DNA from: Rhizohabitans arisaemae
GTDB lineage: Bacteria > Actinomycetota > Actinomycetes > Streptosporangiales > Streptosporangiaceae
Length of the DNA: 64,000 nucleotides
NCBI RefSeq assembly: GCF_025996515.1
Contig: NZ_BLRH01000029.1
Location: 248,001-312,000 of the forward strand
Direction of reading: 5' to 3'
This document shows positions 25,288 through 33,695 of the stretch, one piece after another. The notes under the pieces were generated by a model. The model was not told the origin of the DNA, made no database searches, and saw only the letters and a program-made list of their open reading frames with translations. A program made the translations under genes and the position numbers. How positions within the stretch are numbered: the stretch's first letter is position 1; every line of letters starts with the position of its first letter.

Positions 25288-26796
25288 ATGAGCAAGACCC
25301 CGTCGACGTCCGCGGAGCTCGGTTCGGCCATGCCCGAGGAGCTGGCGGATGCGGGAGTCCCCCGACCGACGCACGAACTGAGGGTTCCCGGGGATCTCGT
25401 CGAGGCGGCCGAGCACGGATTGGAGAGCAGGGGCGGGCCGCGCAAGCGGGTGTTGATCATCGGGGCCGGGATGGCCGGCCTGGTCGCCGGCTACGAGCTG
25501 ATGCGGCAGGGCCACGAGCCGATCGTGCTGGAGGCCCAGCAGCGGGTCGGCGGGCGGGTGCTCACCCTGCGCGACTTCGCGCCCGGGCTGTACGCCGAGG
25601 CGGGCGCGATGCGGATCCCCCGCGTGCACGACCTCACCCTCGCCTACTGCGAACGGTTCGGGCTGCGGCTGCGCCCCTTCGTCATGGGAAACCCCAAGAC
25701 CCTCGCCTACATCCAGGGGGTCAGGACCACGATCGGGGAGCTGAACGGCAACCCGGGGATCGTCGACTTCGGGCTGGCCGAGCACGAGCGGGGCCGCACC
25801 TACGAGGACCTGTGGCAGAGCGCCACCCAGGAGATCCACGAGCTGTACGCCGAGGAGGGCGAGGACGCGCTCGACCGGATCTGCGCGGAGTACGACCGGT
25901 ACTCCATCCGCAGCTTCCTGCGGGAACGCGGTTTCTCCGAGGGGGCGATCGAGCTCTACGGCGTGATGAGCTTCCGGGAGGCCAACCTCAACGCGGCGAT
26001 CATCGAGCAGTTCCGCGAGATCATCGGACGGGCGTTCGAGGACATGCAGGAGATCGAGGGCGGGTCGGATCGGCTGCCGACCGCCTTCTATCACGAGCTC
26101 AGGAACCACATCCGGTTCGGCCACGAGGTGACCGCCGTCGAACAGGACGATCATTCGGTGACCGTGCACGTCAAGACCGGCCTGGGCAAGACGACGATCA
26201 CCGGTGACTACGCGGTCTGCGCGATCCCGTTCTCGGTGCTGCGCGATGTGGAGACCAGGCCCGCCTTCTCCCGGCGCAAGCAGCGCGCCATCCGGGAGCT
26301 CAACTACAACGCCTCCACCAAGATCTTGTTCCAGGTTCGGCAGCCCTTCTGGGAGCGGACGGACGGCATCGTCGGCGGCACCACGGTCACCGATCTGCCG
26401 ATCCGGCGTATCTGCTACCCCTCGCACCCGGGCGCCGAGCAGGAGCGGTCGGTCCTGCTGGCCAGCTACACCTGGGGACAGGACGCGCTGCGGTGGGGAG
26501 CGATGTCCCCGGCCAAGCGGATCGAGCAGGCGCTGGAGGACGTCTCCAAGATCCATCCGCAGATCCACGACCACTTCGAGTTCGGCGTCACCCACGCCTG
26601 GTACGACGACCCCTACGCGGCCGGCGCCTTCGCCTTGTTCGAGCCACACCAGCAGACCAACCTGCACGACGCGATCATCGCGCCGGAAGGCCGCGTGCAC
26701 TTCGCCGGCGAACACTGCTCGCTCTGGCACGCCTGGATCGAGGGCGCCCTCGAATCAGGGCTCAACGCCGCCAAAGCCATCCACGAGGCGGACTGA
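25288..26796 (+). CDS. flavin monoamine/L-amino-acid oxidase family protein
   Basis: 502-residue flavoprotein. The Rossmann FAD motif is VLIIGAGMAGLVAGYELMRQ (about residues 54-73), followed by the GG motif QQRVGGRVLT. Near the C-terminus GRVHFAGEHCSLWHAWIEGA is the FAD-covering segment typical of L-amino-acid and monoamine oxidases. An N-terminal 50-residue extension precedes the FAD fold. No signal peptide is apparent. It oxidatively deaminates an amine or L-amino acid, releasing ammonia and H2O2. The ATG follows GGGGAGTGAGG. It stands alone and convergent with the oxylipin-like operon. Confidence 0.87.
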   Translation: MSKTPSTSAELGSAMPEELADAGVPRPTHELRVPGDLVEAAEHGLESRGGPRKRVLIIGAGMAGLVAGYELMRQGHEPIVLEAQQRVGGRVLTLRDFAPGLYAEAGAMRIPRVHDLTLAYCERFGLRLRPFVMGNPKTLAYIQGVRTTIGELNGNPGIVDFGLAEHERGRTYEDLWQSATQEIHELYAEEGEDALDRICAEYDRYSIRSFLRERGFSEGAIELYGVMSFREANLNAAIIEQFREIIGRAFEDMQEIEGGSDRLPTAFYHELRNHIRFGHEVTAVEQDDHSVTVHVKTGLGKTTITGDYAVCAIPFSVLRDVETRPAFSRRKQRAIRELNYNASTKILFQVRQPFWERTDGIVGGTTVTDLPIRRICYPSHPGAEQERSVLLASYTWGQDALRWGAMSPAKRIEQALEDVSKIHPQIHDHFEFGVTHAWYDDPYAAGAFALFEPHQQTNLHDAIIAPEGRVHFAGEHCSLWHAWIEGALESGLNAAKAIHEAD

Positions 26797-26805
26797 CGCC
26801 GCGGG

Positions 26806-27060
26806 TCAGCGGGGCTCCGGCGCGGGCCGGCGCCGGGCCCCGCGGGCGTAGCGGTCCAGGTCCGCGGCGGCGTCGGTCAGGTCGTCGGCGGCCCTGACAC
26901 AGGCGGCGCGGTGGGATCGCACCGCGTCCCGGAGCCATGGCGGGGCGACCCCGCTCTCCTGGAGGCGCGCTTCGATCGCGTCCAGGCGTTCGGCGCATTC
27001 GGCGAGCGCCCGGGCGTCGGCCCGCAGGATCTCGGCGTGGCCGGCGATCGCCTCGGACAT
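26806..27060 (-). CDS. small helical protein, last gene of the P450/COX-like operon
   Basis: 84-residue protein, strongly helical and Ala-rich (HAEILRADARALAECAERLD), with heptad-like spacing and a basic C-terminus RRRPAPEPR. It superficially resembles WXG100-type or ESX-target small proteins in size, but there is no WXG; it may form a helical hairpin. It starts 18 nt after the hydrolase gene on the same strand. I do not recognise a family; function unknown, perhaps an accessory to the membrane-associated enzymes upstream. Confidence 0.6.
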   Translation of the reverse strand: MSEAIAGHAEILRADARALAECAERLDAIEARLQESGVAPPWLRDAVRSHRAACVRAADDLTDAAADLDRYARGARRRPAPEPR

Positions 27061-27078
27061 CGGTCCTCCGTTTGATGG

Positions 27079-29223
27079 TCAGGTGGTCTGTACCGGCACG
27101 GCCGCGTCCCGGAGGGATCTGCGGGAGGTGACCGACACGCACAGGGCCGGACGTTCGCCGTCCAGCCCGAGCTCACGGAGCCTGCGGGCGAACGGATGGG
27201 TGTTCTGCCCGACGTCGAGCCGTACCCGGGGCATCGGATGGATCCGGCACCGGCCCTCGGTGCGCACGCAGGATCGCAGGGTGGTGCCGTTCCGGCTGGT
27301 GTAGGTGACCAGGTCCCGGTCGCGGGCGGGGAACCCGAGGCCGAGGGGTCCGTCCAGGGTGAGCACCCGGTCGCGGAGGCCGCCGACCGCGATGTGCGCG
27401 GTCCCCGCGGTCAGTTCGAACTCCATGGGCGCCAGGTAGGATTCCCCGCCCCACAGGGTGCGCGTCAGGTCGTGGACTCCCGCGCTGTCGACCACGGAGC
27501 CGGCCAGCACGTCCCCGGAGCACCGCCGGTCGGCGTCGCGCAGCAGGTCCGGCCAGACCCGGAGGGATCCCGGGCGCCAGGGGTCGGGGACCACGACCCC
27601 GAGATGGAGTTCGCGGTAGCCGCCCAGGCTGGTCCGCCGGTTCCAGCAGGCCCGGACGACGACGACGGCCCGGTCCCGCATCTGTACGGCGGGACCGAGC
27701 CCGGTCCCCCGGAGCAGCCGTCTCGCCGCGTCCGGCTCGACGGCGAAGTACGCGGTGAGGGCGCTGCCGTCCTGGCACCTGATCGGCAGCTCGACGGTCC
27801 CGCGCGGGGTGTCCACCGGATGGGTGGGCACGGTGAGGAACGGAAAACCCTCGGGGTAGGGGACGCGGTCGTACAGCCGGTACGCCTGGGCGCGCACGAC
27901 CGGGCCGTGGTACGGGGCGAGCCGCCCGTCGATCACGGCACGCTCCTCGGGCAGGTCGTCGGCGAGGTTGGCCAGGTAGCGCTCGATGCTGTGGCACAGC
28001 GGGAAGAGATGGGTGGAGTCCCGGTAGTCCACCGTGTACCAGTCGGGGTGCAGGTCGAAGCAGCCGCCCGCCCCCTGCCCGTCGAGGGTGGGGATGATGT
28101 CGTGCTGGTTGGTGACGCTCGCGATCCAGGTGTGCGGGTCGGCGGGTTTCTTGAAGTCGACGGGTGAGCCGACGGCGACCACATGGGTGACGCTGTAGCG
28201 GGCGCAGAACTCCGCGTCCTGCGCCAGATTCATGATCGCCGCCCCGCCGGCGCTGTGCCCGATGAGGGCGAGCTCGGCGCCGTGCGGCAGGCCGTAGTCG
28301 GCGACGGCTTTGGCCAGGGCGCGGCTGTAGGGGTTGCTGTCCAGCACGGCGCTGCTGAACGCGCCGAGCAGGTCCTGCGGAGAGTCGTTGTCGGGTCTCC
28401 CCGTCCGCATCCCGGGTGCGTGGACGACGTGCCGTGTCGTCCCGTCGGGGCCTTGGACGCTCTGGATGAGCATCCGCCCGGTCGTGCCGATCGCGTCGAT
28501 GTTGCGGAGGAAGCCGAGGAGGGTGCCCTCCGCGCTCAGCCGGGCGGATTCGGCGGCGGTGAGTTCGATACGGCGGGCGGCCCCCTCGCCGGTGTCCAGG
28601 ACCGCGACGGCGCGGTTGCTCAGGCCGAGGATCGGGTCGGCGCTGGCGTAGCCCTGGCCGGTGGCGATCAGCCAGGCGGCGGTGTCGTTGAGCGGGTTCT
28701 CGTCGAGCAGGGCGCGCAGGGCGAGCACTTCGCCGAAGACGGGGGCGAGTCCGCTGAGGGTGCGTACGGCCCCGCGGTCCTTGAGGAGGGCGCGCAGGGC
28801 CCGGATGGCTTCGAGGTCGCGGTCGGCGGCGGCCGCCTCGATGAGCCGTACCAGCAGGGGGTCGTCGGCGAGTTCGGGATGGGTGCGGGTGACGGCGGCG
28901 ATGCGCAGCCGGAGCGAGACGGCCATGACCCGCACCGCCAGGCTCTCCGCGCCCGCCATGGCGCCGAGCTTGCCCGCCAGGGTGCCGAGCCGGCCGCCGA
29001 CGAGCGCGTGTCCGAGGCCTTGGCCGCCGGTGAGGGCGCGCACCAGGGTGCGTCCGGCGCGGCAGCCCGCCGAGGGGGCGCGGGACACGGAGCCGAGCAC
29101 GGCCCGGTCGGTGAGCGCCGCGGTGGCGTGCCGGGCCGCCTCCTGGATCACGACTCCGATGTCGGCGACCTCGCGGGCGGCGTCGCGCAGCAACCCGGCG
29201 GCCGGGTCGGTCTCCTCGCTCAC
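27079..29223 (-). CDS. lipase-like alpha/beta-hydrolase fused to an acetoacetate-decarboxylase-like domain
   Basis: 714-residue protein. Residues 1-240 are a helical N-terminal domain without recognised family. Residues 260-430 form an alpha/beta-hydrolase with the nucleophile elbow LIGHSAGGAA (Ser324) and later NQHDIIP, whose Asp may complete a triad with a following His. Residues about 460-700 look like an acetoacetate decarboxylase-type barrel (RACWNRRTSLGGYRELHLGV); this part of the call is tentative. A GTG start overlaps the COX-like stop by GTGA. In context it could release a fatty acid from a lipid for the dioxygenase, or act on the oxylipin product. Confidence 0.65.
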   Translation of the reverse strand: MSEETDPAAGLLRDAAREVADIGVVIQEAARHATAALTDRAVLGSVSRAPSAGCRAGRTLVRALTGGQGLGHALVGGRLGTLAGKLGAMAGAESLAVRVMAVSLRLRIAAVTRTHPELADDPLLVRLIEAAAADRDLEAIRALRALLKDRGAVRTLSGLAPVFGEVLALRALLDENPLNDTAAWLIATGQGYASADPILGLSNRAVAVLDTGEGAARRIELTAAESARLSAEGTLLGFLRNIDAIGTTGRMLIQSVQGPDGTTRHVVHAPGMRTGRPDNDSPQDLLGAFSSAVLDSNPYSRALAKAVADYGLPHGAELALIGHSAGGAAIMNLAQDAEFCARYSVTHVVAVGSPVDFKKPADPHTWIASVTNQHDIIPTLDGQGAGGCFDLHPDWYTVDYRDSTHLFPLCHSIERYLANLADDLPEERAVIDGRLAPYHGPVVRAQAYRLYDRVPYPEGFPFLTVPTHPVDTPRGTVELPIRCQDGSALTAYFAVEPDAARRLLRGTGLGPAVQMRDRAVVVVRACWNRRTSLGGYRELHLGVVVPDPWRPGSLRVWPDLLRDADRRCSGDVLAGSVVDSAGVHDLTRTLWGGESYLAPMEFELTAGTAHIAVGGLRDRVLTLDGPLGLGFPARDRDLVTYTSRNGTTLRSCVRTEGRCRIHPMPRVRLDVGQNTHPFARRLRELGLDGERPALCVSVTSRRSLRDAAVPVQTT

Positions 29224-30803
29224 GGTTCGGCCCGCCGGGTCATGCCGACGAACCGCGGCCGGGTGTCCTCCGGGGTGTTGCGGTGGAGTACGTCGGAGAG
29301 CGTCCGGGTCGTGGCGATGATCCGCGCCCCGTACGGCGAGAAGGTCGCGGGTGTGAACACCCGGGTGGCGAGCAGCGGGTTGGTCAGCGCCTGGGAGAAG
29401 GCGTCGATAGCGATGATCTTCGTGAGGAGCGGCGGCAGGATGGCGTCGGGCGATCCCGGCTCCTCGGCGAAGAGCCCGACGTAGAGGTCGAGGTCGTCGA
29501 CGTCCCGGTAACGCTCCCGCAGCGCGTCGACGACCCGCCGGTCGCCGGAGATCTGCTCGAAGCGGCGGACCCGGGGGAAGCGGCAGTGTTCGCGGTAGCT
29601 GTTGTAGGGGGCCAGGTCCAGGGTGCGGGAGTCCGCGATGCTGGCCACGTCCACCTCCCGCAGGATCGGGTCGGTGTTGAACAGGCCGATCCGGCCGGCC
29701 CGCTGCCGGGAGGCGTCCTCGAAGAGGCGTCCGAGTCCGATCTCGGGGAGCAGCGGGCCGCCGAGCAGGGTCTGCGCCATCGGCAGGTCGCGTCCGCCCA
29801 CCGACAGGTGGGAGGGGATGAGGCTGTGCCAGCGGTAGACCAGGTTGAACTCCACCGAGGCCCAGTTCTGCCGGTGCCAGGACGCGCGGGCGAGCATCGC
29901 CGACAGTCGCGGGTCGAGGGTGAACCGGAAGTGGTACGGCGTGATGTGGTTGATGTACTCCTCGACCACCAGTTTGATGAGGAGCACGATGAGGATGTTG
30001 CGGGTCGTCTGGAAGAGCCGCTCGTCGTCCCAGTGCGGATGCCGCTTGGCCAGCAGGCGGGCCACCCGGTTGTGCTCACGCAGGAAGAGCGTGGTGAGCA
30101 TGGTGAAGCCGATCTGAATGTTTCCCCGGTCGCTGCCGGTCGCGAACAGGGTGTCCCGCTGGGCGTGGGTGAGCTCGGCGAAGCGGATCACGCTCAGCTG
30201 CGCGAACTCCGGCTTGACCTCGCCGTTCGCGCAGAGGTACGGCGGGAACTCCCCGCCTTCGACGACCTGGCTCTTGAGCAGCCCTCCCTCCAGGGTGCGC
30301 AACGCGGTGGCGGCCACCTCGTCGAGGCCGTACAGCTGGTTCAGGTCGATGTGGTGGTTGGAGCTGTTCTTCCGGGGATCGCGAGGGATCCCGGTGTCGC
30401 CGCGGAGGAACCCGTCGGTGAACCACTGCGCGAAGTAGGCGAAGAGCACGGTGGACCTCGGGCAGGGGATCATGGTGTCGCCGCGGACGAACAGCTCGCC
30501 GGCCTGTTCGGGGCTGGGGCGGTGGTCCTCGGCCCGGGAGACCGGAGGCAGGTGGCGGCCGCTGTAGCTCCGGTCGGTCAGCGAGGTCCAGGAGGTGTAG
30601 TCGGCCATGGTGCTCAGCGGTTCCGGCCGAGGCGGCATCTCCCGGATCGCCGAGTCGATCAGTGCGGCGTTGAGGCGCCGCCGTACCGGACGGACGGCCT
30701 GCGCCAGCTCCCAGAGCGGTCGCCCATGGGTGAGGGCGAGGAATCTGAGCCGGTTGACGGCCCCGTCGTTGCGGGCGGTCCGCGCCTTCCGCCGGCCTGT
30801 CAC
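29220..30803 (-). CDS. cyclooxygenase-like haem dioxygenase (animal haem peroxidase superfamily)
   Basis: 527-residue protein aligning by eye along most of its length with prostaglandin G/H synthase catalytic domains: MADYTSWTSLTDRSYSGRHL (about 66-85), FAYFAQWFTDGF (121-132), TLFLREHNRVARLL (238-251), FNLVYRWHSLIP (319-330), AFSQALTNPLL (468-478). Tyr323 and His326 match the COX catalytic tyrosine (Tyr385) and proximal haem ligand (His388); Ser470 sits at the aspirin-serine position. The distal histidine (His207 in COX-1) is replaced by Asp130 while the neighbouring Gln126 is kept. No signal peptide, EGF or membrane-binding domain is seen. GTG start overlaps the P450 stop (GTGA). Expected role: dioxygenation of an unsaturated fatty acid. 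Confidence 0.85.
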   Translation of the reverse strand: MTGRRKARTARNDGAVNRLRFLALTHGRPLWELAQAVRPVRRRLNAALIDSAIREMPPRPEPLSTMADYTSWTSLTDRSYSGRHLPPVSRAEDHRPSPEQAGELFVRGDTMIPCPRSTVLFAYFAQWFTDGFLRGDTGIPRDPRKNSSNHHIDLNQLYGLDEVAATALRTLEGGLLKSQVVEGGEFPPYLCANGEVKPEFAQLSVIRFAELTHAQRDTLFATGSDRGNIQIGFTMLTTLFLREHNRVARLLAKRHPHWDDERLFQTTRNILIVLLIKLVVEEYINHITPYHFRFTLDPRLSAMLARASWHRQNWASVEFNLVYRWHSLIPSHLSVGGRDLPMAQTLLGGPLLPEIGLGRLFEDASRQRAGRIGLFNTDPILREVDVASIADSRTLDLAPYNSYREHCRFPRVRRFEQISGDRRVVDALRERYRDVDDLDLYVGLFAEEPGSPDAILPPLLTKIIAIDAFSQALTNPLLATRVFTPATFSPYGARIIATTRTLSDVLHRNTPEDTRPRFVGMTRRAEP

Positions 30804-32107
30804 GGTCGCACGTCCGGTCCGGCGGGGTCCAGCCCGAGGACGAATCGGTCGGGGAAGACGCCGCCCGCTCGGATGATCTCCCCTTCCGGCTGGGGGAGCA
30901 GTCGAACCCCGGGACGGAGCAGCAGACGTCGTACGGTCTCGCAGATGACCACCCGGGCGGGGTGGATCCCGAGACAGGAGTGGTGGCCGAGGCCGAAGAA
31001 GAGCCGGTGGTGGTCCGGCCGTTCGGGACGGAACTCCTCGGGCTCGTCGACCACGTCCGCGTCGAACACGGCCGAGGCGGGCGCGGCGAGGACGAGGGTG
31101 CCCGCGGGGACGAGCGTGCGGCGCGGGGTCCCGGCGGCCAGGACGTGGTCGCGCTCGCAGATCCGGGGAAGCAGCTTGAAGAACGGGTTGAACCGCAGGG
31201 CCTCCCAGACGTACCGGTCGAAGCTCTCCGGGTCGGCGGCGGCTTCGACGGCCTGGGCCAGCACCTGGGGGCGGAGCAGCAGCTGCTCGGTCGCCTCGGC
31301 CATGGCCCCGGGACCGCTCTCCACGAATCCGAGCGGCAACCCGGCCATGTTGACCACGATCCGCTCGTCGTCGACGCCGATCCCGGCGGGCAGCACGGTG
31401 GCGACGAGCCTGGTGAAGACGTCGTCGGGCAGGTCCCGGCCCGCCGACCGGGCGGCCCGGAGCCGGGCGAGCCGCTCCGTCAGGTAGGCCTTCATCTCGG
31501 CTCCCGCCTGCTCGGACGCGGCTTGGATCCGCGGGTCGCCGCCGAAGTTGGCGAAGCCGTCGACGATGATCGCCCTGGTCCACCGGGAGAGGGTGTGCGG
31601 GTCGGGGCCGGGGAAGCCGAAGTATTCGGCGCACACGCCCAGCGCGACACGGCGGAAGAGCCGGTGGACGGCTTCGACGCGTCCCTGCGGGGCCGCGGCG
31701 TCCAGCGCCTCGTCGGCGAGGCGACCGGCCAGCTCGCGCACGCCCGCCACGTCGGCGGGGGAGAGCATGACCCGCATGAGCCCCTTCTCCCGCCAGTTCA
31801 TCGGGGTGGCGTCCCGGGAGAGCATGAACGGGGCGCCGAGCGCGGCCTCCAGCCGGGGTCCGAAGGCGCGCACGGTGAAGACCTTCTCGTGGGAGAGGAC
31901 CTCGGCCACGTCGGGGTAGCGGGTCACGACGGTGAAGCCCGGGGTGACGAAGATCGGCCGTCGCTCGCGCAGTTCGGCGAAGAGGGCACGCCAGTCGGTT
32001 CGCATCCAGTCGCGGATCAGGCCGATCGCGGACATCGGGTCCCGGGCCAGGGCTTGGTCGTATCTCTCCAGGTGGCTGCCCGTGGTCGCCTGATCGACAG
32101 TGCCCAT
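30800..32107 (-). CDS. cytochrome P450 with atypical I-helix
   Basis: 435-residue P450. The haem loop is FGLGHHSCLG (Cys378 as thiolate ligand) and ExxR is Glu302-Ala-Leu-Arg305. The I-helix reads IVVNMAGLPLGFVESG (about 250-265) and lacks the acid-alcohol pair (D/E)T that most O2-activating P450s carry; it has an Asn-x2-Gly instead, as in P450s that rearrange fatty-acid hydroperoxides (CYP74) and prostacyclin synthase-like enzymes. No ferredoxin gene is nearby. The ATG at 32107 has AAGGGG upstream; a GTG at 32164 would add 19 residues. It is the first gene of the operon with the COX-like protein. Confidence 0.87.
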   Translation of the reverse strand: MGTVDQATTGSHLERYDQALARDPMSAIGLIRDWMRTDWRALFAELRERRPIFVTPGFTVVTRYPDVAEVLSHEKVFTVRAFGPRLEAALGAPFMLSRDATPMNWREKGLMRVMLSPADVAGVRELAGRLADEALDAAAPQGRVEAVHRLFRRVALGVCAEYFGFPGPDPHTLSRWTRAIIVDGFANFGGDPRIQAASEQAGAEMKAYLTERLARLRAARSAGRDLPDDVFTRLVATVLPAGIGVDDERIVVNMAGLPLGFVESGPGAMAEATEQLLLRPQVLAQAVEAAADPESFDRYVWEALRFNPFFKLLPRICERDHVLAAGTPRRTLVPAGTLVLAAPASAVFDADVVDEPEEFRPERPDHHRLFFGLGHHSCLGIHPARVVICETVRRLLLRPGVRLLPQPEGEIIRAGGVFPDRFVLGLDPAGPDVRP

Positions 32108-32277
32108 GCCGTGGCCCCTTCGCGGAAGACGGAGCGAACATTGATCATCACGTTGTGTAGCCACAATCTAGGCCGGGGCCGGGCTTTCCTTGATGGCTAC
32201 CGTGTGCAGTGTTTTGCTTCCTGTAAGTGACTGACTCCTCACTCTCAAGTCATTGTCGGAAGTACCGCAAGCCGGTC

Positions 32278-33237
32278 ATGAATGGGGCCGTGACTTCCTC
32301 CCCCGGCGGACGGCCGGACTCGGGTGCAGCGGAGACGGTGGCGGTCGGCACCGGCCGCCGGACCGCCTACCTCGTCGTCCTCGTGGTGCTCCCCGTGGTG
32401 CTCCTCGCCCTGGCGGTGCCGGCCGTCTGGGGGTGGGGGATCGGCCCGCGCGATGTGGTCATCGCGGCGACGATGTATCTGATCAGCATCTTCGGCATCG
32501 CCATCGGCTACCACCGGCTCTTCACCCACCGATCCTTCAGATGCCGCAGACCGCTGCGGATCGCCCTCATGCTCGCCGGGGGCATGGCCGTGGAAGGGCC
32601 GGTGACGCTGTGGACGGCCGAGCACCGCCGCCACCACAAGTACGCCGACCGCCAGGGGGACCCGCACTCGCCGTGGCGGTACGGCGACGGCGGCTGGGCG
32701 CTGGTGCGCGGCATGGCGCACGCGCACGTCGGCTGGTTCTACACCGCGCGCCGCCGGTCCAACATCCGGCACTGGGTGCCCGACCTGCTCGCCGACCCGG
32801 ACGTCCGGCGCTTCGACGCCGCCTATCCGGCCGTCGCCGCGCTTTCCTTCGCCCTGCCCGCCGCGGTGGGCGGAATCTGGTCGATGTCGTGGGCCGGGGC
32901 GTGGACCGCCCTCTTCTGGGGTGGCCTGGTCCGGTACGCCGTGGTGCACCACGTCACCTGGTCGGTCAACTCCGTCGCGCACACCTTCGGCGACCGCCCG
33001 TTCCGCACCCGGGACCGCTCGTCGAACGTGCGCTGGGTGGCCCTGCTGACCTTGGGCGAGGGCTGGCACAACTGGCACCATGTGGAGCCGACCTGCGCCC
33101 GGCACGGGGTGCTCCGGGGTCAGCTCGATCCGAGCGCCCGGCTCATCCGCTGGTTCGAGCGTCTGAACTGGGCGGACGGTGTGCACTGGCCGGACCCCGA
33201 GCGGGTCGCCGCCCGTCGCGTCGATCCGCGCTCCTGA
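32278..33237 (+). CDS. membrane fatty-acid desaturase (acyl-CoA delta-9 type)
   Basis: 319-residue integral membrane di-iron desaturase. The three histidine boxes are HRLFTH (after GYHRL), EHRRHH and WHNWHH, the last within LTLGEGWHNWHHVEPTCA. Hydrophobic pairs YLVVLVVLPVVLLALAV and VIAATMYLISIFGIAIGY, then SFALPAAVGGIW, fit the usual four-helix layout. It introduces a cis double bond into a saturated acyl chain. Divergent from the P450/COX-like operon across about 170 nt, so it may supply the unsaturated substrate. The start is uncertain: ATG 32278 is used here, and a GTG at 32227 is possible; neither has a strong ribosome-binding site. Confidence 0.88.
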   Translation: MNGAVTSSPGGRPDSGAAETVAVGTGRRTAYLVVLVVLPVVLLALAVPAVWGWGIGPRDVVIAATMYLISIFGIAIGYHRLFTHRSFRCRRPLRIALMLAGGMAVEGPVTLWTAEHRRHHKYADRQGDPHSPWRYGDGGWALVRGMAHAHVGWFYTARRRSNIRHWVPDLLADPDVRRFDAAYPAVAALSFALPAAVGGIWSMSWAGAWTALFWGGLVRYAVVHHVTWSVNSVAHTFGDRPFRTRDRSSNVRWVALLTLGEGWHNWHHVEPTCARHGVLRGQLDPSARLIRWFERLNWADGVHWPDPERVAARRVDPRS

Positions 33238-33366
33238 AGGGGTCGTCGAGGCTTGGCGGCGGATGAACGATCATGTCGCCCCAGGTGCTTGACTTCCGCC
33301 GGCGGACCGGGATCCCGACAAACCGGCAGGGTGGCCACGGCAGGGATGGGATTTCCGTGATTTGGG

Positions 33367-33441
33367 CGGTCCTGACGGGACTTGAACCCGCGACCTCCAC
33401 CTTGACAGGGTGGCGAGCACTCCAAACTGCTCTACAGGACC
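33367..33441 (-). tRNA. tRNA-Asp(GTC)
   Basis: 75-nt cloverleaf on the minus strand: acceptor stem GGTCCTG/CAGGACC, D-stem GAGC/GCTC, anticodon stem CCACC/GGTGG with loop CTGTCAA (anticodon GTC), T-arm with GGTTCAAGTCC. Discriminator G; CCA is not encoded. A single-copy tRNA here; no other tRNA is seen beside it. Confidence 0.96.
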
Positions 33442-33695
33442 ATGTCTTTCGACTTCTGAACGGATCCTACCGTGGCGCGGAGAGCACTCGAACCGCTTGC
33501 GGCGCGGGATTTCAGCGGGCTCCCGGTCAAGACCGATCGCACCCGGTCGTGGGCGGCCGGTGGGCCGGCCAGGCGGGCGATCGCGCGGAAGTCCGTGGAC
33601 GGCGGCTCACCTGCGGCATGCGCTCTCCTCCCACATATATACACAGGATGAAACTGGGCAAATGGCATCGTTTCCGCCAAGAGATCAGGGTGATC

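Follow-up and report, generated by a model that had tools for sequence, protein, structure and literature searches.

Do actinobacteria encode an oxylipin-type pathway in which a fatty-acid dioxygenase and the cytochrome P450 that would process its hydroperoxide are separate proteins? The question is raised by a five-gene cassette from Rhizohabitans arisaemae (Streptosporangiaceae). The window analysed here is a 64,000-nucleotide stretch of NCBI RefSeq assembly GCF_025996515.1 (contig NZ_BLRH01000029.1, positions 248,001 to 312,000, forward strand), and coordinates refer to this window. The cassette encodes a P450, a haem dioxygenase related to cyclooxygenase (COX), a lipase-like alpha/beta-hydrolase fused to an acetoacetate-decarboxylase (ADC)-fold domain, a small helical protein and a membrane fatty-acid desaturase. 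The gene set, its conservation and co-occurrence, and the key residues of its enzymes are direct observations. They point, with better than even confidence, to a dedicated oxylipin-type pathway of separate proteins that would run from desaturation through release and dioxygenation to P450 isomerisation.

Organization and conservation of the cassette

Four genes lie on the minus strand. The P450 (30800..32107, 435 aa from ATG) is followed by the COX-like haem fatty-acid dioxygenase (29220..30803, 527 aa), the hydrolase/ADC-fold fusion (27079..29223, 714 aa) and the small helical protein, a conserved hydrolase partner (26806..27060, 84 aa). The stearoyl-CoA-desaturase-like desaturase is divergent on the plus strand (32278..33237, 319 aa), 170 nt from the P450 start. 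A sequence-only reading of the window had described four minus-strand genes and a divergent desaturase at about 170 nt, and all five were located as described. The GTGA overlaps it reported throughout the four-gene run are present at the P450/COX and COX/lipase junctions; the lipase and small-protein genes are separated by an 18-nt gap. Pfam identifies the dioxygenase (An_peroxidase, E = 1.2e-51), the P450 (p450, 2.8e-10) and the desaturase (FA_desaturase, 4.1e-20). None of the five proteins matched any NCBIfam model above cut-off.

Co-occurrence was measured in a family-level search of 201 genomes, which returned full-length dioxygenase orthologues at 58% identity and above. The orthologue is found in 32/201 genomes and the P450 in those same 32; the carriers are kin, and the count does not represent 32 independent events. 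The lipase is present in the same 32 genomes, in G003 at a contig start, and as a C-terminal fragment in G110. Co-occurrence of the P450 and COX-like genes, a check that the sequence-only reading proposed, is near-perfect, G142 being the sole further genome with the P450. The locus in this genome, L179 (G142:C1:9717729-9719224), is a decayed cassette in which what is left of the dioxygenase, about 63 residues (8-70), adjoins the P450.

A scan of public genomes returned 80 loci, 70 of which carry more than a P450 remnant. About 70 further loci keep the cassette, ranging from Streptosporangiales to Streptomyces in at least five gene orders. Homologous operons lacking the desaturase and lipase would have spoken against a shared pathway; the desaturase is found in 67 and the lipase in 65 of the 70 P450-bearing loci. 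Among the incomplete loci, L105, L107, L109 and L120 end at contig edges, and L087, L113, L091 and L132 seem to be true absences. The desaturase is divergent in the majority gene order. Every gene is co-directional in Acrocarpospora, and the order in the diverged lineage L126 is LIP-SMALL-AMOX-P450-DOX-DESAT. In one Streptomyces group the hydrolase gene is downstream in inverted orientation and the desaturase gene lies past it; a second group has the hydrolase upstream. A common function for the cassette is best supported by gene content that is kept though order changes.

Assignment of the dioxygenase

The best PDB relatives of the dioxygenase are prostaglandin G/H synthases (E = 4.5e-65, near full length), in agreement with the alignment noted in the sequence-only reading. 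The alignment with PGHS-2 spans the protein nearly end to end, and peroxinectin A is the next match (95 bits). The catalytic Tyr323, central Tyr283 and proximal His326 (COX Y385, Y348 and H388) occur in 81/81 dioxygenases. So does Asp130, which lies in an F-T-D-x-F motif at the position of the COX distal His207. Arg226 occupies the COX Val291 position in 78/81 sequences. Ala468 is found at the COX Ser530 position, where 3/81 have Ser. COX Arg120 aligns with Ile53; the neighbouring Arg54 is variable (R in 53/81) and Arg59 is invariant. The terminal motif DAFSQA (D467-A468-F469-S-Q471-A472) fits the DAFxQA pattern of the 10S-dioxygenases (10S-DOX), and the dioxygenase also shares with them FTDxF, Y-I-x-x-I-[TA]-P and the Arg at COX Val291.

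A cyanobacterial relative ties these motifs to a known enzyme layout. The window dioxygenase is 43% identical to a 544-aa protein at Scytonema locus L182, which has FTDSF at 143, the central Tyr at 307 and the catalytic Tyr at 344. The Nostoc 10S-DOX, as described by Oliw (PMC13049297), is laid out in the same way (542 aa, F143tdsF, Tyr 305 and 342). The next gene after the L182 dioxygenase encodes 393 aa and, to judge by its start, may be a catalase relative. At Scytonema locus L140 (50% identical), a catalase-family gene lies directly downstream (Pfam 1.5e-12). These comparisons make the cassette enzyme very probably a bacterial dioxygenase of the 10S-DOX type. Asp at the distal His position, Ala at Ser530 and the greater similarity to 10S-DOX speak against a cyclooxygenase proper, and this assignment is rejected. 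The COX-like label of the sequence-only reading survives in the sense of a COX-related haem dioxygenase and fails in the sense of a cyclooxygenase. We infer from the distal Asp that peroxidase turnover is weak and that the hydroperoxide would leave the enzyme intact.

A dioxygenase tree was built from 41 sequences by a quick search, with Shimodaira-Hasegawa-like approximate likelihood ratio (SH-aLRT) support and no bootstrap. Every P450-partnered dioxygenase falls in a single clade (99% SH-aLRT), which has one P450-less member, L124. Dioxygenases of Solirubrobacter, Frankia, Verrucomicrobia and cyanobacteria lie outside the clade and are without this P450. The P450 partnership therefore probably arose once, and the partner that processes the hydroperoxide would differ between phyla. 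The distal Asp is common to all of the dioxygenases and is thus older than the partnership. Two family genomes (L064, L065) have a distant dioxygenase clade, about 46% identical, with FTDSF as in the Nostoc 10S-DOX and without cassette partners. Thermomonospora echinospora (L117) has a second dioxygenase copy, 59% identical, preceded only by a P450 C-terminal end.

The cytochrome P450

The P450 has a canonical haem loop (FGLGHHSCLG, Cys378) and K-helix (E302xxR305). Its I-helix reads G260-F-V-E263-S264 with Gly267, and other lineages have Asn at position 264. The residue at the usual I-helix Thr position is Asn in 37, Ser in 34 and Thr in none of the 71 cassette P450s. A control set of 22 distinct other P450s from this genome, cleared by hand of duplicates, of one false frame and of the window's own entry, has Thr in 20, Ala in 1 and Ser in 1. 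The preceding acid is kept as Glu in 60/71 and is Gln in the Streptomyces members. An NxxQ spacing is present in 16/71 P450s and is seen in members from Streptomyces (QQNATQC), Acrocarpospora and L126.

Asn is found at this I-helix position in prostacyclin synthase (PGIS), plant allene oxide synthase (AOS) and the fungal linoleate diol synthases (LDS) and epoxy alcohol synthases (EAS) (PMC13049297). The fungal LDS and EAS carry the NxxQ spacing, which is NQxQ in LDS (PMC13049297 Table 3). The Asn/Ser substitution and the NxxQ pattern are no more than suggestive of a hydroperoxide-isomerase-like P450. The enzyme probably acts on the hydroperoxide that the dioxygenase would make. Membership of CYP74 is excluded by the canonical Cys loop FGxGxHxCxG, the CYP74 loop being atypical. 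Membership of the CYP152 peroxygenases is likewise rejected; the I-helix has Glu/Gln followed by Asn/Ser, without the Arg-Pro pair.

Hydrolase fusion, small protein and desaturase

The fusion protein consists of a helical N-terminal region, a central alpha/beta-hydrolase and a C-terminal ADC-fold domain. Its Pfam matches are sub-threshold only (Lipase_3, 0.024; ADC, 0.009). The hydrolase residues G322-H-S324-x-G326, Asp375, Asp381 and His411 occur in 66/66 rows covering them. Foldseek assigns the ADC fold to the C-terminal domain (E = 2.9e-10, probability 1.0), and the N-terminal third is helical with low model confidence. No conserved Lys that could serve as the Schiff-base lysine of ADC is present in the alignment of residues 456-714. 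This domain is therefore rejected as an active ADC enzyme and is probably a binding domain. The small protein has a sub-threshold Pfam match only (type VII secretion system-like, 0.019).

A paralogue of the fusion, 46% identical, is encoded about 89 kb away in the same genome, beside an α-dioxygenase. This second cluster lies outside the window (G000:C28:358830-368225; L176 4831-14226) and contains the α-dioxygenase, a P450, an FAD-linked oxidase, a thiamine pyrophosphate enzyme and the paralogous hydrolase/ADC-fold fusion. The α-dioxygenase matches rice fatty acid α-oxidase with 402 bits and keeps the distal His, and the genes as a whole resemble a bacterial cluster for fatty-acid α-oxidation. 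Two relatives, L177 and L178, have a small helical protein, related to that of the cassette, between the α-dioxygenase and the hydrolase. A hydrolase that accompanies two different fatty-acid haem dioxygenases supports a fatty-acid substrate for both. Two Sinosporangium loci, L091 and L132 (genomes G004 and G069), have lost the cassette hydrolase and keep the paralogous hydrolase of the α-dioxygenase cluster, as if a single hydrolase could serve both clusters.

The desaturase scores 73 bits against PF00487 (cut-off 29.7) and has the conserved His boxes HRLFTH, HRRHH and HNWHH. Its nearest PDB relative is stearoyl-CoA desaturase 1, and the genome encodes three desaturases in total. The gene is divergent in the window and co-directional or moved in other lineages. 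The Nostoc 10S-DOX accepts oleate in addition to linoleate (PMC13049297), so a Δ9 monoene from the desaturase would suffice as substrate. An oleate-type monoene is judged likelier than arachidonate, which the sequence-only reading had listed for assay together with oleate and linoleate.

Neighboring features

The divergent promoter region holds a candidate operator, the inverted repeat TTGTG-N4-CACAA (32153..32166, no strand assigned). Eleven exact copies occur in 1.57 Mb of related loci, all in the P450-desaturase gap of 11 relatives; the loci are related, so this result indicates conservation and not independent occurrence. A longer pattern of the repeat has a single site in the 8.3-Mb genome, and a regulon search with it therefore defined no regulon. 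An L-amino-acid-oxidase (LAAO)-like flavoprotein is encoded beside the cassette as an accessory neighbour (25288..26796, plus strand, 502 aa). Such a gene adjoins 13/80 loci and lies within the operon in L126 (6630-8111). It is a possible source of peroxide, for example for priming the dioxygenase. A tRNA-Asp gene (33363-33442, minus strand) directly downstream of the desaturase marks a possible insertion site.

Proposed pathway and alternatives

The proposed pathway would start with the desaturase, which would act on a C16-C18 acyl chain and create a cis double bond there, probably at Δ9. The alpha/beta-hydrolase would free the acid, with the ADC-fold domain and the small partner perhaps serving to bind it or hand it on. 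The dioxygenase would use a Tyr323 radical to take an allylic hydrogen and add O2; the resulting allylic hydroperoxide would most likely be the C10 one, as with the Nostoc 10S-DOX. The hydroperoxide would probably not be reduced efficiently, Asp replacing the distal peroxidase His. The P450 would then take the hydroperoxide as its oxygen source, since the usual O2-activating Thr is missing, and form a diol, an epoxy alcohol or a related product, like fungal LDS and EAS, plant AOS and PGIS. Of the split counterpart of oxylipin pathways proposed by the sequence-only reading, the core is supported by a gene set kept under rearrangement, by co-occurrence, by the haem-enzyme residues and by the paralogous lipase at the α-dioxygenase. 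It needs amending on four points: the dioxygenase is very probably of the 10S-DOX type and not a cyclooxygenase, the P450 has a usual bacterial fold and falls outside CYP74, a monoene is a likelier substrate than arachidonate, and the C-terminal domain of the fusion has the ADC fold but no catalytic Lys.

Several points weigh against this pathway, and those that concern the P450 favour a conventional O2- and ferredoxin-dependent monooxygenase that would hydroxylate or epoxidise the dioxygenase product or its alcohol, with its redox partner encoded elsewhere. The FGxGxHxCxG and ExxR motifs are canonical, and the closest folds are those of bacterial monooxygenases. An AlphaFold2 model of the P450 (pLDDT 90.6) has its closest structural matches among ordinary bacterial P450s, CYP134A1 and CYP142 for instance, and not in CYP74 or PGIS. 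The I-helix acid is Glu in most members, and the window's own clade has Ser, not Asn, at the Thr position. Ser can stand in for the I-helix Thr; P450cam T252S is still active, and P450cin uses Asn. The I-helix Asn is dispensable, and 8R- and 9R-AOS have Thr and still isomerise (PMC13049297). The complete absence of Thr, with Asn the commonest residue, and the exchange of the acid for Gln in the Streptomyces members stand against a monooxygenase. No ferredoxin gene (3Fe-4S pattern) lies within about 10 kb of any cassette. Ferredoxin absence is weak evidence because an adjacent ferredoxin is found for only 2 of the approximately 22 other P450s of the genome. A monooxygenase is the less likely assignment, and it is the alternative to be taken most seriously. 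The remaining points are more general: lipase models match the hydrolase at sub-threshold scores, the Δ9 regiochemistry and the host fatty-acid supply are predictions, and every reaction, substrate and product of the cassette is deduced from sequence.

The other explanations change the role of the cassette rather than the oxidant of the P450 alone. It may degrade unsaturated or peroxidised membrane lipid to products without a role of their own. A hydrolase next to oxidising enzymes, and a second cluster resembling α-oxidation, fit such turnover or detoxification, but a substrate-making desaturase kept with the set fits synthesis, not disposal, and we regard turnover as unlikely. Still less probable is a peroxygenase for which the hydroperoxide, or H2O2 from the flavoprotein oxidase, is only the oxidant for another substrate, so that some other metabolite is made or modified. 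The evidence leaves the P450 substrate free and the LAAO-like gene could supply peroxide; however, the CYP152 Arg-Pro pair is missing, no conserved neighbour able to supply a different substrate was found among the cassette loci, and the desaturase and hydrolase indicate a lipid. That the genes are chance neighbours or hitchhikers is hardly credible: the divergent desaturase and its adjacent tRNA gene would allow it, but the set stays together in several gene orders across Actinomycetota orders and co-occurs in the 32 family genomes. Successive desaturation, release, dioxygenation and P450 isomerisation is the reading we favour.

Discussion

The closest known system is the linoleate 10S-DOX of Nostoc punctiforme with its catalase-related hydroperoxide lyase. 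As described in PMC13049297, its dioxygenase agrees with that of the cassette in the catalytic and central Tyr residues, the proximal His, the distal Asp and the terminal motif, and its hydroperoxide is processed by another, separate protein, as predicted for the cassette. That protein is a catalase relative, whereas the cassette has a P450 and also encodes a desaturase, a small protein and the hydrolase/ADC-fold fusion. The fungal DOX-CYP enzymes (Ppo, LDS, EAS and AOS) likewise combine a COX-related dioxygenase with a P450 and have a bacterial-type HxC haem pocket. The distal axial I-helix Asn of LDS and EAS is shared with 37/71 cassette P450s, and their NxxQ with Streptomyces, Acrocarpospora and L126. 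The fungal enzymes are single polypeptides, whereas the window and the examined loci have two separate genes; they also differ from the cassette in its distal Asp for His and in Ser264 of the window P450. It is likeness, not descent, that is compared here.

Animal COX with PGIS or thromboxane synthase (TXS) shares the haem dioxygenase fold, the YxWH motif and a separate P450 partner. The cassette dioxygenase is without the distal His, Ser530 or a clear counterpart of Arg120, and a source of arachidonate is unexpected. In the plant CYP74 pathway (LOX, AOS, HPL) a P450 acts on a fatty-acid hydroperoxide, as is predicted for the cassette, but the dioxygenase is a lipoxygenase instead of a haem COX-type enzyme and the cassette P450 has a canonical Cys loop. 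Pseudomonas aeruginosa 10S-DOX and 7,10-diol synthase take oleate through a hydroperoxide to a diol in a bacterium; both are related to dihaem cytochrome c peroxidases, and their fold is unrelated to that of the cassette enzymes (PMC4496055).

Bacterial COX-related dioxygenases were still putative sequences only in a 2015 review (PMC4420034), and the cyanobacterial 10S-DOX is the sole bacterial one treated in a 2026 review (PMC13049297). The sequence-only reading knew of no described system with this gene set. A literature search likewise found no earlier account of a dioxygenase-P450 system in bacteria; most subscription journals lay outside its reach, so novelty is unproven.

One may guess that the product is a signal, like the psi factors of fungi or the diols of Pseudomonas. 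A bolder and rather doubtful idea is that the cassette is the surviving bacterial form of a DOX-P450 partnership ancestral to the fungal DOX-CYP fusions, and that its products are diffusible oxylipins used as signals between actinobacteria or towards plants and fungi. The cassette permits a test of this proposed bacterial forerunner, and the pathway is directly testable since many cultured type strains carry it. If the pathway is as proposed, it would provide free-standing P450s in which to study the control of O-O bond scission, and it would be a second, P450-based bacterial route to oxylipins, widespread in soil actinobacteria.

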